The notes under the pieces are model-generated. The model was not told the origin of the DNA and searched no databases. It saw nothing but the letters and a program-made list of their open reading frames with translations. A stretch of DNA of 64,000 bases from Flammula alnicola. Its lineage: Eukaryota; Basidiomycota; Agaricomycetes; Agaricales; Strophariaceae. Within the stretch, counting starts at the first letter, position 1, and each line of letters opens with the position of its first letter. Positions 36,357-44,034 of this stretch are shown piece after piece. The stretch is from NCBI GenBank assembly GCA_015499995.1, contig JADNRV010000007.1:434001-498000 (forward strand), read 5' to 3'. The translations under genes and the position numbers were made by a program.

Positions 36357-36365
36357 GTTATGCCT
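36357..36365. repeat. Left 9-bp target-site duplication
   Basis: GTTATGCCT directly abuts the left terminus (CAGGCTCC...) and is repeated perfectly at 42083-42091 just outside the right terminus. Confidence 0.85.
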
Positions 36366-36529
36366 CAGGCTCCTAACCATCCGTCGTTGGGAGGTTCTAC
36401 CTCTGCTACACGGATAGTTATATTTAGAAATTGCTTTGTAATAGTAACCTTAATTTTTGACGAACTCCCAACGACGGCTGGCAAACAATGTCAGCCACAG
36501 GCGTGTGAATTGCTGATCAAGCACGAACC
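36366..36529 (+). repeat. Left terminal inverted repeat
   Basis: Pairs with 41926-42082 in inverse orientation. The outer 28 bases (36366-36393) and an inner 71-base block (36452-36522) are identical in both copies; the spacer between them has diverged. Each copy contains the 13-base word CCGTCGTTGGGAG (36381-36393) and its inverse (36465-36477), so each end can fold back on itself. The helicase ATG lies 302 bases from this end, so the repeat is probably its promoter. Confidence 0.9.
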
Positions 36530-36667
36530 AGAACGCGATTCGGATTCAAGTTCGAGGGATAAGGTCACATGCATTCAAACTTCTAGGACGTGTTTTGTTT
36601 TTCTACATACTTCAATCGACTAAGCTGTTTTCCACTTGTTGCTTGACCATTCTCACTCAATCCAGTC

Positions 36668-39175
36668 ATGGCATCCTCTGGCTCTGAACAGCCTAGTGTC
36701 TCTGAAATTCGTGAGAAGACTTTCGAAGTCTTTAAGAAACGGCCTTGTCTTTTTCAGATCGAACTTTGCAGAGCCCAATTAGCTGCGCGTCCCATCTCTC
36801 AGGATATCATCAGTGTTGCTGCGACAGGATCTGGAAAAACTTTGACTTTCCTTATGCCTCTCCTTTTTAATGGGGGAAAATTTGTTCTCATTATCACAGC
36901 CTTGAACATTCTTGGAGATCAATTTGTCACGCAGGCCACAGAAGCTGGCTTCTCTTCAATAACCGTCACAAGTGAGAATGATACAGATACCACTTTCGAG
37001 GTATGTATACAACAAAACTATGATTTAAAAGTACTCATTCAACTTAACCCACCTCTAGAGCATCAGGAAATTCCAATTCCGCGTCATTGTGATCAACCCC
37101 GAAATCTTTACAAAACGAGGTGGACACTGCCAGAAAAGACTATGGCCACATAAACCTTTTAGAGATCAGCTCTTTAATTTTGTACTCGATGAAGGGCATT
37201 GTGTTACGCAATGGGGATCCACCTTCCGTCCAGAATATGCTGAAGTTGGGCTTGTCCGCTATTTCGTCCCCGAAGTACCAATGTTCATTACCTCGGCAAC
37301 AATTCCGCATTCCATGATTGCATCACTCAAAGAAACCCTGCATCTCTCCGACAACCTACTTTTTTTTCAGCGGTCAAATGACCGACATAACATATCATTC
37401 TCAGTGTGGAAAATGAAATATCCCCAGAATTCATATCAGGATCTCGCTTTTCTGATCCCAAAAGATTGGAAAGCTGGAGACCCTATTCCAAAGAAATTTA
37501 TGGTCTTTTTTAACAGCAAAAAAGAGGCCGAAGACGCTTGCATTTTCTTACGCAGTCTTATGCCTCCTGATCTGCGAAGTAAAATTATGTGGTTTCATGC
37601 TGGAATGACCCAATCTTTCCGGACTGAAGAAATCGAGTCATTCAAGAATGGAGAAACATGGGGCCTTGGTTTAACTGACGTTGGTGGCATGGTGAGGTCA
37701 AGTTTACATTTTTGCTTTTGCGTTAAAATTGACAGAGAGCAAACAGGGCCTAGATATTCCAGACGTCCAAATCATTGTTCAATGGAAAGTCCCGAAGGAC
37801 TTGAACACATTAATGCAACGTTTCGGAAGGGGTGGTCGAAACTTCAGTCTCGAGGCAACCGCAATTTTGATTGCTGAACCAAAATGGTTTTACGATGAAC
37901 ATCTCAAGAAATGCGAGAGAAATTTGAAGAGAAAACGGGCCAGGCAAAATACCAACACACATCGAGATGTAAAACATCGAAAATTAGGCGAGACTGGCAC
38001 TGGAATTCACAGCCATCAAAGAACCAACAGGATGAGTACTCAAATCAGAGGAGACGGCGATGCAACCACTGATGAGGAGGCATCGGATCTGGAGCCTGAG
38101 GAGGCATCCAATGTGAACACAACCATTTTGGACGACATCATAATGGGCAAAAATCCTCAGGAAGTCGAAGAAAAAATCCTCAGGATCGGTGAAACTACCA
38201 AGAAGCAGTCGTCAAAGAAAAGAACCATTGACAATGCGATGAAGCTTTTTATCAATGCAAAGTGGCTATCAGGGAGGAAGCGCTGCCGACGATATCACTC
38301 CAATCGATACTATGATAATGATAAAATTAGTAAGCCTACACTCCTTCCTCCGCTAATCCCACCATGCTAAATCCATCCTCAGCTCCAGCCTCAGAATTTT
38401 GCTGTGAACGTTGTGCGCCCAAGATTCCTCCAAAATGTTGTGACCTTTGTCACCCAGATGAAGTTACAGCAATGATTCCCAGCGGTTCTTACGAGCCACC
38501 AACTCACCCACGCGCACCTACAAAAATCAAGGACTGCGAATTCACTCTTTCAACAAAAGAAGAACATTTGAAAGACCAACTCCTGAAATGGCGTGAAGAA
38601 ACAGCAGTCAAGCTATGGGGATCAACCGAGTTCTTTCCCGCAGACATGCTTTTGCATGTCACCGTTGTCGACCGGATTGTGCAACTTGCACATGCACATG
38701 CTATCACGACCGTCACTGATCTATCCAACCAAACACATTGGGCCTTCTGCGACCGTTATGGAGATGTTATCGTTGACTTCGTGAGAACTATCTGTCCTCA
38801 ACCAGTTGCTGTCGTGCAATCCGAGTCACCGTTTGTATCCGCTCCTTTGATTCTTCCTCTATCTCTGACACAGCCATTACCGCTTCAACCTGCGACATTT
38901 GTCAATTTCTTCAATATGCCTCCCTTACCAGTGAATGCTGCTAAGCCTCAAAAAACTCGAGCCCCACCAACGTGCAGCCGATGTGGAGTTCGCGGCCATA
39001 AAAGTAAGTCAATCAGTTGTACTGTACTTTGTCATTGATTTAACATGCACTACCAGTGAATAGTTTATCTTGTCCTCTCAACAATAAGGGAATGATTGTT
39101 TCTGGTGATGAAAATATTGCTTCTGGTTCAATTTTGCGGCCAGGTGAGTACCCAGATAATTTGTTTAAGAAATGA
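36668..39175 (+). CDS. RecQ-like DEAD/DEAH helicase with Cys-rich/zinc-knuckle tail (element-encoded)
   Basis: Five exons (36668-37000, 37059-37691, 37747-38329, 38383-39003, 39057-39175) give 762 residues in one frame. Motifs: Walker A AATGSGKT (about 51-58), DEGH box (155-158), SAT (motif III), GGMGLDIPDVQ formed across an intron, and QRFGRGGR (motif VI, 346-353). After the helicase core come an acidic/basic linker, a Cys-rich patch (FCCERCAPKIPPKCCDLC) and a C-terminal knuckle (CSRCGVRGHKMNSLSC) that could bind DNA or RNA. It lacks an obvious RQC/HRDC pair, unlike cellular RecQ/Sgs1. It lies within the TIRs, convergent with the DUF6589 gene, whose coding end it overlaps by 11 bases. Its role in transposition is inferred. 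Confidence 0.85.
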
Positions 39176-41852
39176 CGTTCAGATCCTCATATTCAATCTC
39201 TTCAACCAGATTCTCTTCTTCTGTAGTTTCCACCCCCCCAGACTTCTCCGTTTGAAAAACACGCATACCATCTCGGAAATGATCAGTCAATTTGCAAGAA
39301 GTTCGCTTTTCGTTGAGTTCATGTGCTCCATGTTGTTCAAGAAGATCGCAGAGAACATTCAAAGTGTTTTGAATATTGGGAGGTGCGTGACGAACACTGC
39401 GATGCATAAGATGGAAGTTCTCCTCGATTATCTTGTGGATGTGCCGAAAGACTTCAATCAGAGGTGACTGTTTCAATATCCATTCGAACGTTCTTGCTGA
39501 ACCTGAACTCCCATAGGTTACCTATTTAATAAACGAGATTTTACACCACTATGACAGCACTCAAGACTTTTAGACCAACCTTTGTGAATAGGTTAAGAAG
39601 TTCGTTCAGCCAATCAGCCCCTCGAAACCCATCAACTTTGCCTGTCGGATTGACCAACCAATTCATTCGGATAGCATGCCTAGCAATATCAATCAAAACC
39701 AGCACCGCAAACAAGAGCATTAGAAGCTACGTACCTTAGTCTTTCGTTGTAAACATACTGCATGTCGTTCATTATCTTGATCAGATAGACAGCGTATTTG
39801 TGCTTTCGAACACTTTTAAAAACAAGGGCCCAATGAAGGAATGTAGCTTCCACTCGACCAATGTCTCCGTGTTTCATAGCATGTGCAAGTTCAACATATT
39901 GAAGTAATCGCGCCAGAATCAGTGAGTTGTTTCGAAATTCTTGATCGTTGCAGTCCGGTTTATCTAAGTATATTTTCGCTAGATCAAGGGAAATATTCTC
40001 GATATCAGCCCACTTGAGATTCAGTCGCTTTGCGAAGTCTTTCAATTCCTTGCAGTCAGGATAATCCTTTCTGACTTTGACCCTCCAGCAATCCAGTATT
40101 CTTGCAAATGCACATTGGTGGGCTACTTCATGCATCAGCCGGAATGAGTATTTACTCGCAATCTTTCCAGAATCGTGAGGCCTAATTTTACAGATCTGCG
40201 AGAATAGGGTATTTGGACCCTCGCGGACTGCTTTCGGTTCGATAAACATTCTCCATAGGGCATCACCGCAACCCATCAAGTAATGGAAGAGTCCCATGAC
40301 ATAGACGACGAACTGCAGTCGGCGAGTGGGTTTTTTTTCGATGGATCTTGATCTTTTAATTCCATCAATTAACTCTCCTGTCCTTAGATCACCATGCCAG
40401 AGGCTGACGTACTCGCTGATATCTTCTGCCATGGGGAAGTCCTCGGGGTCGCCAAGATTCGCCTGCTGACACAGATTATTGATGATCTCAGCCTGCCCAT
40501 CATTTGTGGATTGGTTGATATCCATTGAACGACAAGGGATATGCAAGGTTTTGGCTACAGGTATCTGATAAACAGTCTCCGGAGAACCGAGATCGTTGCT
40601 GAATTTTTTGAACTCCTCGCAGAATGAAACCAACGTGTAGCGAAAGTGCCAAGCAAGTATCCGTATTTCACGACATGGACTTGACTCTGGTTGAGTCACT
40701 GCATGGGCGTGCGGCAAGCAGTCGACCCAGGTACGTGTTGGTTTCCGATCCTGTTCTAGGATATGAGGGTTTAACGGGTTGGACCTCCAGAGCTCTTCGG
40801 AACATTTCAGATCATCCGCAGTCACGCCATGGGCAAGAGGGAAGACCAGCGCAGATGTTGCATGTTTAAGAGTAACCCCCGGTTTTTCGACTGTGGGCTG
40901 CGAGGACTTGAAGTCCATATCGAAGTTGTCGTACACAAATGAACCGAGCATAGTTCGTGCAAGTTCCTTCACTTGTATATGGGCTTTAGCGGATAAGGAA
41001 GTAATCATTTTATGAATCGACGTTTGGGATATCGAGAGCCCTGCGTGCGCAAGCATCTCAACGACTAGCTCTGGGGTTGATGTCGAGTGGCAGAAAATGC
41101 CAATAATAGATGCTATCGGGTTACACTTTTGGTTCGTAGTCACCAGCAACATGGAAATGATAATAACCCTTCTCTTTACAACAGATTAACGTCAACAATT
41201 CATTTGATTCTAATTTTTGAACAAGAAAAAGACGTACAAGTTGATCTACAGCCTGATTGCGATTCCTTGCTCTCCGTTGTCGTTTGGATTGCAGGCTTTC
41301 AGGATCGCCACCGTCATCCATTTTGGACATGTCCTCAAGCTCAGGCTCTGTATCCTGTTCCAAGTATTCGTCCTCATCATCCCAGAATCCGTCGGCCATG
41401 CTCCCAGCAGCATCCTTCCGAGTCTCCGTAGCCAGGTATTGCGCGCGCCGACATTCTCTCGCTGGATCACTTGTCAATAGACAACCTATTGTCCGCCATA
41501 GCAACGGTGTCTCGCTCCGGAGTTCTGCAGCCATTTCCTCGATTGAAAATGCCTCGAGTTGTGCTGCCGACGCAGTTTTAGCACTGAAGTGCCAACCAGA
41601 CTGCTTGGAGGCCATTTGTGCTATCTCGGACATCAGAATCTCGGTGCACAGAAGCAGGCAGGTACTCAGAATTGGTTCTCGAGTGTCTTTGTGATTGAAT
41701 AGGGCATTTATCAGATCTGGACATTCTGCGATGAAAAAGTGTCGTGTAGCCGAGTCTTCAAAGGTCGGTTCACCCAGAAAGAATTCGAGAAAGTCCTTTA
41801 TTGTATGGCCTTGTAAAGCCAGAAGTACAGACGTAGCAATTTTAAGGTCCAT
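39165..41852 (-). CDS. DUF6589-like protein, candidate transposase (element-encoded)
   Basis: Four exons (41852-41238, 41173-39735, 39679-39580, 39521-39165) join in frame to 836 residues. The sequence resembles the agaricomycete DUF6589 family: TNQKCNPIASIIGIF, YDNFDMDFK, VEKPGVTLKHATS, LWHGDL, RLQFVVYVMGLFHYLMGC and RILDCWR. Conserved acids at about D287/D290 (YDNFD), D467 (HGD) and E554 (MHEVAH) could form an RNase H-like catalytic triad; this is inference from spacing and from the element context. The C-terminus is acidic (TTEEENLVEEIEYEDLN). The start codon lies 230 bases inside the right TIR. It is the only plausible transposase in the element. Confidence 0.78.
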
Positions 41853-41925
41853 GGAAAGATTGGAAAGGTCTTGTAGCTCGGAGTCAGATTGACTATTGCA
41901 TCGATGACGCGGCTCTCAAATTGAA

Positions 41926-42082
41926 CTGGTTTGCGCTTGATCAGCAATTCACACGCCTGTGGCTGACATTGTTTGCCAGCCGTCGTTGGGAGTTCGTCAA
42001 AAATTAAAGTTAATATTACAAAGCTTTTTCGCACAGTCACGTAGCAGGATGGAACTCCCAACGACGGATGGTTAGGAGCCTG
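41926..42082 (-). repeat. Right terminal inverted repeat
   Basis: Inverse of 36366-36529. The identical blocks are at 42055-42082 and 41935-42005. The 13-base word appears at 41980-41992 and 42055-42067, so the element carries four copies in symmetrical arrangement. Confidence 0.9.
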
Positions 42083-42091
42083 GTTATGCCT
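42083..42091. repeat. Right 9-bp target-site duplication
   Basis: GTTATGCCT, identical to 36357-36365, immediately after the terminal ...GGAGCCTG. Confidence 0.85.
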
Positions 42092-42108
42092 CACCATTTG
42101 TCGATAAA

Positions 42109-42958
42109 ATCTGGGAGTTGGAAACCACGGCTGGGTCCACGGCGATCAGAACGGCGGCAAAGTCCGGCAGTCAGGTGAGCGCGGCCGTCCTGATGTGTCC
42201 TCGCGCCTCCTCCGACTCGCGCGTCGCTTCCTTTCTCCTCCGGTCCATTTTCCCGCCTCTCTTCATGTGCGATACCTACACGCCAACTGAACAACTGCCA
42301 AAACTTGCACCAGAATTTGCCTCGATGGCCGTATTATCGTCGACAACGAACGCGGCAGCGGCGGCAACATCATTGCATTGAGGAGAGGTAGCGGTGATAC
42401 ATGTACGACCAAGAGAGGTAGCAGTGGCATCAGCGCACGTACAACGGCGGCAGTGGCCCACGACCAGGAGATATAGCAGCAACCCAAAGCAGAAGCCCCA
42501 CCACCACCCTTTCGATGCGATGTCGGAGACGAGGGCGCAGGAGCAAAACCGAAGGCGCTGGAAAGCGACCCGAGGTGCAGCAGCATTTGTATACTGCTGG
42601 CGCTCGCGGATCTTCGTGCTGTCTCACCACCCTTACCTCTTCGTCGAAGCGCCGTTACTGTCTCCCCGACTTCATCACTCCACCCTCTTCATTTGGCAAT
42701 GGCCAGCCACTCTTGCGTCGCCACACAGCTCTACCTTAGGACCCGCCTTTCCTTAATACCTTTTTCAGTGTTACATAGTAGCATATAGTCATTGAATTAT
42801 ATCTTGATCTGATTCCAGAGAACACGAAGGCGGAGAGGCGTTCCCATTATCCCCTAGCGCGCAAGTCCCATGACCGGGTGGAAAGTCGCCGCCATCCCGC
42901 CGCTGCGATCGCCGTTGCGATCGCCGTTTTTTGATGCCGTTTTTTCCAACTCCCAGAT
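42109..42958. mobile_element. MITE-like insertion with degenerate inverted ends
   Basis: ATCTGGGAGTTGGAAA at 42109-42124 recurs inverted at 42943-42958. The similarity continues inward through ACGGCGATC and AACGGCG blocks (to about 42157 and 42906). The interior of about 750 bases is GC-rich with CGG/GCA triplets and ORFs of no recognised family. No target duplication is clear. Probably an old non-autonomous element. Confidence 0.5.
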
Positions 42959-42977
42959 GTCCTCCATTTGTCAGAAA

Positions 42978-43657
42978 GTTCCGGATTTCGAGAGTCCGAA
43001 CCGCCGCCAATCCGCCTGTCCGCCTCCTCATCGAATCCCGTGATCAGCGCGCCTTCCCGTAGACGCGCCTCGCGCCACCTCCCCGCCTTGTATAGGTACC
43101 TGTATTCATCTGCATTTCTTACAATATATATATATTTTTATCGTTGAATTAGCGTGCGCCTACAGCGCCCGTATCAGGGGCGGTAAACAGCCGTATTTTG
43201 CGATTTAATCACCTTCCCGATGTGAAGTCTGAACATTCTGAACCCGTACCCCACCCTCGTACGGTATTTCTTTTCCCAGAACACAAAGATGGGTCTCGCC
43301 TTGTGCATAAATGCAGGACCACCCTTTATCCTCAAGATTTATGTCGCTTTTGCCTTAAACTTGCTCCTTGCGAGCCATCATCCGTTTTGTGCCTGCCATT
43401 TTGTCGGGTTTCTGCTCTAATCACCTTTTCTACTCTATCAATACAGTTACAGCCATAATATTCATGGCGTGGACCTCCGCGGGATCCACAGGACGCGGGG
43501 GGGGGGGGGGGAAATAATTCCCAACTAACTATTAGTATTGGGCGGGCGGTGGCTAAGATAGTAGAAAGTGATGAAATTTCACTGATGAGATAAGCGAAGT
43601 TAGGCGGACAGGCGGACAGGCGGATCGGCGGCAGTTCGGACTCTCGAAATACGGAAC
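42978..43657. mobile_element. Second inverted-repeat pair, possible MITE remnant
   Basis: About 48 bases beginning GTTCCGGATTTCGAGAGTCC (42978-43025) recur inverted at about 43612-43657 with a few mismatches. Between them lie an AT dinucleotide tract near 43128, a 15-base G-run (43497-43511) and no gene. A short GTCCTCC(C)ATTTGT motif lies in direct orientation outside both ends and may be part of an older target duplication. Confidence 0.45.
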
Positions 43658-44034
43658 GTCCTCCCATTTGTGATCATTTCCGAAATTCACTGAGAGGAAA
43701 AGGGACTCGCCATGCAAGGCCCAGCCACAGATGTTCGAAACCTTGTGACCACCAGTCCTCTGGTATGGACTTGGAGCAAAGTGGGAATGAACAAAGGAGA
43801 CCATGAAATTCCGCAGTTCCGCAAGTGTTCTTCTAGATTTATGGAGTTACAGCTGATGCCCTCCGTTACACAATTCTAGGTAGGTATAGATTAACGAAAT
43901 GTTCATAAAATAATGGAAGTAATGGAAGTGAGCAATTAAATATGGTTTGTCACCTGCATCTATCGCAAGTGCAATGAAGGAAAGCTCGAAAGGGAAAGAT
44001 CTAGAGTAGATGAAGGCACTGGGTATCGATGAGA
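43658..44034. other. Spacer right of the repeat cluster
   Basis: AT-rich sequence running into the 3' flank of the thioesterase gene; no gene recognised. Confidence 0.35.

Follow-up and report, generated by a model that had tools for sequence, protein, structure and literature searches.

An apparently recently inserted transposon in Flammula alnicola, probably of AcademH type, carries a DUF6589 gene and a RecQ-family helicase gene

We analysed a 64,000-nucleotide stretch of the genome of the agaric Flammula alnicola (Strophariaceae; assembly GCA_015499995.1, contig JADNRV010000007.1, positions 434,001 to 498,000), hereafter the window, and found an intact transposon with terminal inverted repeats (TIRs) at 36366-42082. 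The element measures 5,717 bp between two perfectly matching copies of the 9-bp target-site duplication (TSD) GTTATGCCT, and contains two convergent genes, for a RecQ-family helicase and a DUF6589 protein, whose 3′ ends share 11 bp (39165-39175; Table 1). An earlier note on this DNA had described such an element, and the perfect duplication that it reported outside both ends is present. The terminal blocks that it called identical are inverted repeats at both ends, but identical only over the outermost 27 bp; the whole arms (166 versus 157 nt) need gaps to align, and complementarity over the inner 105 nt of the TIR is 94%. Both of its spliced reading frames are intact, one with the 836 residues given, while the helicase has 765 residues rather than 762, a matter of splice choice.

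Table 1 Features of the transposon, in window coordinates
Feature	Position	Strand	Details
Left TSD	36357..36365	.	GTTATGCCT; single copy in empty site L044
Left TIR	36366..36531	+	~166 nt; begins CAGGCTCCTAACC; 25 genome matches including the window's own two
Subterminal inverted repeat within left TIR	36377..36481	+	CCATCCGTCGTTGGGAG / CTCCCAACGACGGCTGG; hairpin-like, from nt 12 of tip
RecQ-family helicase	36668..39175	+	765 aa; exons 36668-37000, 37059-37691, 37738-38329, 38383-39003, 39057-39175; splice sites inferred
DUF6589 protein, predicted DDE transposase	39165..41852	-	836 aa; exons 41238-41852, 39735-41173, 39580-39679, 39165-39521
Right TIR	41926..42082	-	~157 nt
Subterminal inverted repeat within right TIR	41976..42071	-	
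Right TSD	42083..42091	.	GTTATGCCT

Both kinds of evidence to which the earlier note had pointed, an element-free locus and further copies with other duplications, are present in the genome. A second copy of the 300 bp to the left of the element, 100% identical, is present on contig C624 (locus L044), which reads ...GAACTCGGAAGTTATGCCTCACCATTTGT..., with one GTTATGCCT and the element absent. C624 matches the window over 1,802 bp of the left flank at 100% and over 1,503 bp of the far flank at 96.7%. This empty site is the allele expected after an insertion with a 9-bp stagger. We infer that C624 represents the other haplotype; the window copy is apparently heterozygous and recently inserted. 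A second insertion, at 42102-43663, begins 10 bp beyond the right-hand duplication of the element; the empty allele lacks it too. It is flanked by the 8-bp repeat CCATTTGT (42094-42101 and 43664-43671), and the genome contains 19 other matches to its left part.

We opened 12 loci (L029-L040) around the other genome matches to the left end. Both ends were present in 10 of them, and in eight of these the 9-bp duplication is exact. L031 and L033 have the same duplication and were counted as a single insertion represented on two contigs, leaving seven distinct 9-bp insertions. L032 and L035, also treated as a single site, have a 7-bp repeat in common rather than 9 bp. Five non-autonomous copies of ~658 bp differ from one another by 0-1 mismatches, which indicates recent movement of the window's end group. 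Because of the 25 end matches, the other exact 9-bp duplications and the empty site, the ends are not chance repeats, an explanation that the empty site rules out. One miniature inverted-repeat transposable element (MITE) of this group (L039, 295-8656) spans 8,362 bp between its ends, with the TSD GACAGGGGC; nested inside it is a retrotransposon, of the long-terminal-repeat type as read from its open reading frame, with 204-bp direct repeats and a frame of 1,743 codons.

Across the genome, DUF6589 gave 74 exon matches at ~36 loci, and 22 stretches were examined (L009-L028, L041 and L042; some hold two units, and L009 overlaps L010). A first TSD scan of 24 loci, requiring inverted ends of 14 nt with ≤3 mismatches, gave five matches at 9 bp (L015, L017, L018, L019 and the MITE L039), with 0 in one shuffle of each, and none at 10 or 11 bp. 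Other lengths gave 38 matches at 8 bp, most of which come from a single array of inverted repeats in L013, 21 at 7 bp and, as counts without a shuffle baseline, 170 at 4 bp and 291 at 3 bp. A second scan gave five exact matches at 9 bp (L015, L018, L014, L021 and L025), only L016 at 8 bp and nothing at 10 bp; its shuffles, with one mismatch allowed, gave 1.4 matches on average. Although the 9-bp duplications of L014, L021 and L025 are exact, their ends match only over the short TAGTCT, and these three are weaker cases. The 5,208-bp copies L015, L016 and L017 are 5-9 mismatches apart, each with a different duplication. Ends of the elements found mostly read YAGNCT...; clean ends were lacking in the other 14 of the 22 stretches, and a long-TIR search in 18 DUF6589 stretches recovered few. 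In total, exact 9-bp duplications flank the window element and 14 other distinct insertions (three of them short-ended), against one of 8 bp, one of 7 bp and none of 10 bp. At 1644-1690 of L025, a terminus of the L015 family (TAGTCTCGGACCAGC) begins 13 bases inside the element's left end, which suggests that one such element inserted in another.

Subterminal hairpins were assessed by a gapped scan and by an ungapped scan of 14 ends from 7 elements, with 200 shuffles each. The gapped scan placed a stem from nt 11 or 12 of the tip in most long-TIR ends; outside the window's family, it gave no score above the best of 200 shuffles. In the ungapped scan, 0/200 shuffles matched both window ends and the right end of L019 (stems from nt 12), the right end of L021 (from nt 8) or the left end of L025 (from nt 28), and 3/200 reached the left end of L019 and the right end of L025. 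No hairpin signal was found among these 14 ends at L015, L018, L014 or the left end of L021. The hairpins are strong in the window's family and variable in presence and distance in other families; we do not claim them as general.

The pairing of DUF6589 and helicase genes, which the earlier note had inferred from this copy, recurs across the genome. A helicase query gave 26 matches, counting the window's own. For 20 of them a DUF6589 locus is found no more than 8 kb away, a zone covering ≤0.8% of the genome. These 20 (14 convergent, 5 divergent and 1 tandem) are not 20 independent events, since there are sister copies and probable haplotype duplicates among them. C223:1317553, helicase-only at first look, has a DUF6589 C-terminal remnant ~1.4 kb away and is a 21st linked match. 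The remaining helicases without DUF6589 within 8 kb are C681, C711, C835, C612 and C113:11969 (10.8 kb). Those on C681, C711 and C835 are equal-score matches (52% to the window's helicase, as for C223) on contigs without a DUF6589 match; possibly they are decayed copies like C223. A profile search found a helicase in 17/22 stretches. Across 16 units, the pairwise distances between DUF6589 proteins correlate with those between the helicases (r 0.966, reached by 0/10,000 permutations), a value helped by close clusters, the deep nodes of both trees being weak and discordant. Left out of the correlation were L016 and L017, which nearly duplicate L015, L022, whose helicase is partial, and L013, L024 and L026-L028, whose stretches contain no helicase. 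Divergence among the paired units reaches ~80% in each of the two proteins, and the distances match. A DUF6589 match (P0013) and a helicase match (P0144) of Pleurotus eryngii lie on contigs each of 210,929 bases, which suggests that the pair is present in a second species.

The spliced helicase matches the Pfam domains DEAD (1.8e-15) and Helicase_C (3.1e-14) and contains the motifs ATGSGKT, DEGHCVTQWG (DEGH and CVTQWG), TSATI and QRFGRGGR. An aromatic-rich loop after motif II is a RecQ-type feature, and DEGHCVTQWG fits it. The closest PDB matches are RecQ, BLM, RecQ1 and WRN, and the protein, as judged from its sequence, belongs to the RecQ family and has a RecQ-type motor. Its C-terminus carries a zinc-knuckle-like CX2CX4HX6C, with zf-CCHC_6 below the cut-off.

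The DUF6589 gene, like the helicase gene, was modelled with splicing guided by homologs, and its large exon matches DUF6589 (PF20231) with E 4.3e-59. The structure model predicts an RNase H DDE core with a helical insertion. Its best structural matches are Hermes (hAT), ISCth4, the P element and Transib/RAG1, at a sequence identity of 8-13%, and a family missing from this list is not thereby excluded. The candidate triad is D287, D467 and E711, with GLFH at 499-502. These acidic residues are conserved across the DUF6589 family, as is GxxH in the aligned family (G in 143/143, H in 142/143). Among the named sources of relatives inspected (the best 120 of 348 and the best 120 of 145), all were fungi. 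The deposited F. alnicola model P0001 is 97.6% identical to the window protein over 836 columns with 20 gaps. It lacks 20 residues, among them the GD motif with D467, the Asp predicted to be second in the catalytic triad; a mis-called intron is the apparent cause. The protein of another copy matches an F. alnicola record at 100% identity across 75% of the query. The predicted structure and the conserved acidic residues support the proposal of the earlier note that DUF6589 is very probably the transposase of this TIR element.

Helicase-bearing DDD/E transposons have been described in fungi, AcademH being credited to Kojima (Mob DNA 2020, 11:15). AcademH encodes a helicase and makes 9- or 10-bp TSDs (PMC10045372); it occurs in Basidiomycota, Ascomycota and Mucoromycota, and DEAD + Helicase_C is the Pfam pair given for AcademH, KolobokH and Helitron (PMC10799480). 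Academ ranks among the DDD/E superfamilies (PMC9587614), and putative nonautonomous Academ elements are widespread in the agaric Marasmius oreades (PMC8290104). The window element combines a 9-bp TSD, a superfamily II helicase, a basidiomycete host and a predicted DDD/E fold with D287/D467/E711. Together with the observed ends and their duplications, the empty site, the further copies, the gene pairing and the in-step divergence, this leads us to regard it, with good confidence, as a recently inserted, intact AcademH-type cut-and-paste transposon with a DUF6589 DDE transposase, its own RecQ helicase and a 9-bp stagger. The described traits behind the assignment to AcademH are the helicase, the TSD length and the host range.

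In such a transposon, the DUF6589 protein, with its RNase H-fold DDE core, would bind the TIRs, cut the element out and join it to the target with a 9-bp stagger, and host repair of the staggered gaps would yield the 9-bp duplication. The RecQ-family helicase would most likely open the ends or help to process gaps in excision, insertion or repair. A bolder proposal, which we put forward tentatively and consider rather doubtful, is that DUF6589 and RecQ form a near-obligate pair in which the helicase works within the transpososome and determines the 9-bp stagger, making this a helicase-dependent cut-and-paste. The TSD length difference between AcademH and AcademX is seemingly tied to the encoded helicase or nuclease (PMC10045372), which would fit a direct role of the helicase.

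Alternatively, DUF6589 elements could form a DDE superfamily of their own, with no relation to Academ, and have come by their RecQ helicase and 9-bp stagger independently. Among solved structures, the closest folds are indeed hAT, ISCth4, P and RAG/Transib, and neither a DUF6589-Academ link nor the term DUF6589 itself was found in the literature searched (other papers may make the link), nor did sequence connect the two here. The helicase Pfam pair, the duplication length and the presence in Basidiomycota, however, all match AcademH, and we think independent gain unlikely. A similarly small chance attaches to the helicase being captured host cargo outside the transposition machinery: RecQ is a common host family and gene capture by helicase-bearing elements has been discussed (PMC10799480), but DUF6589 accompanies most of the 26 helicase matches, and the pairing is kept in step across highly diverged units. 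We consider it very improbable that the element is KolobokH or another Kolobok with a RecQ helicase. Kolobok duplications are TTAA, whereas the elements described here make 9-bp duplications of varied sequence. KolobokH does encode a RecQ helicase and is known only from fungi, and in one red-algal Kolobok the RecQ helicase lies on the complementary strand, as in the window; the DUF6589 family has GxxH where Kolobok has C/DxxH (PMC9587614). Duplication length argues against KolobokH, although the gene layout taken by itself would be compatible with some Koloboks. That a host gene pair merely lies between repeats, for which the sole argument is that RecQ helicases are generally widespread, has a negligible probability, being contradicted by the empty allele with its single target copy and by the near-identical 5,208-bp DUF6589-helicase copies of another family, which occupy three sites and differ in their duplications.

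The statement in the earlier note that the pairing is undescribed does not hold, since helicase-encoding AcademH (PMC10045372, PMC10799480) and KolobokH (PMC9587614) are already known; a helicase pairing of the present type is known because AcademH is cited with a helicase and 9- or 10-bp TSDs. Our results suggest that DUF6589 is the transposase of such elements. PF20231, a domain of many 'hypothetical' mushroom proteins with hundreds of relatives, very probably gains a function, and DUF6589 proteins could then be annotated as transposon proteins. The intact, recently inserted and apparently heterozygous copy, with its mapped empty allele, offers a test case for a transposon-borne RecQ helicase.

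Among known systems, those that the modelled RNase H DDE core with a helical insertion most closely resembles are Hermes, the P element, ISCth4 and Transib/RAG1. Duplications of hAT elements are 8 bp long, and none of these four systems is known to carry a helicase. Helitron also encodes a helicase but uses an HUH enzyme, and is not known to have TIRs or TSDs. KolobokH is, like the window element, a fungal transposon with a RecQ helicase (PMC9587614), whereas the helicase here is a separate, convergent gene on the opposite strand. AcademX, of the same Academ superfamily as AcademH, differs from the window element in its 3- or 4-bp TSD and in having a nuclease in place of the helicase (PMC10045372). 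AcademH itself shares with the window element the helicase (DEAD + Helicase_C), a TSD length within its 9- or 10-bp norm and occurrence in Basidiomycota, with no differing trait among those compared.
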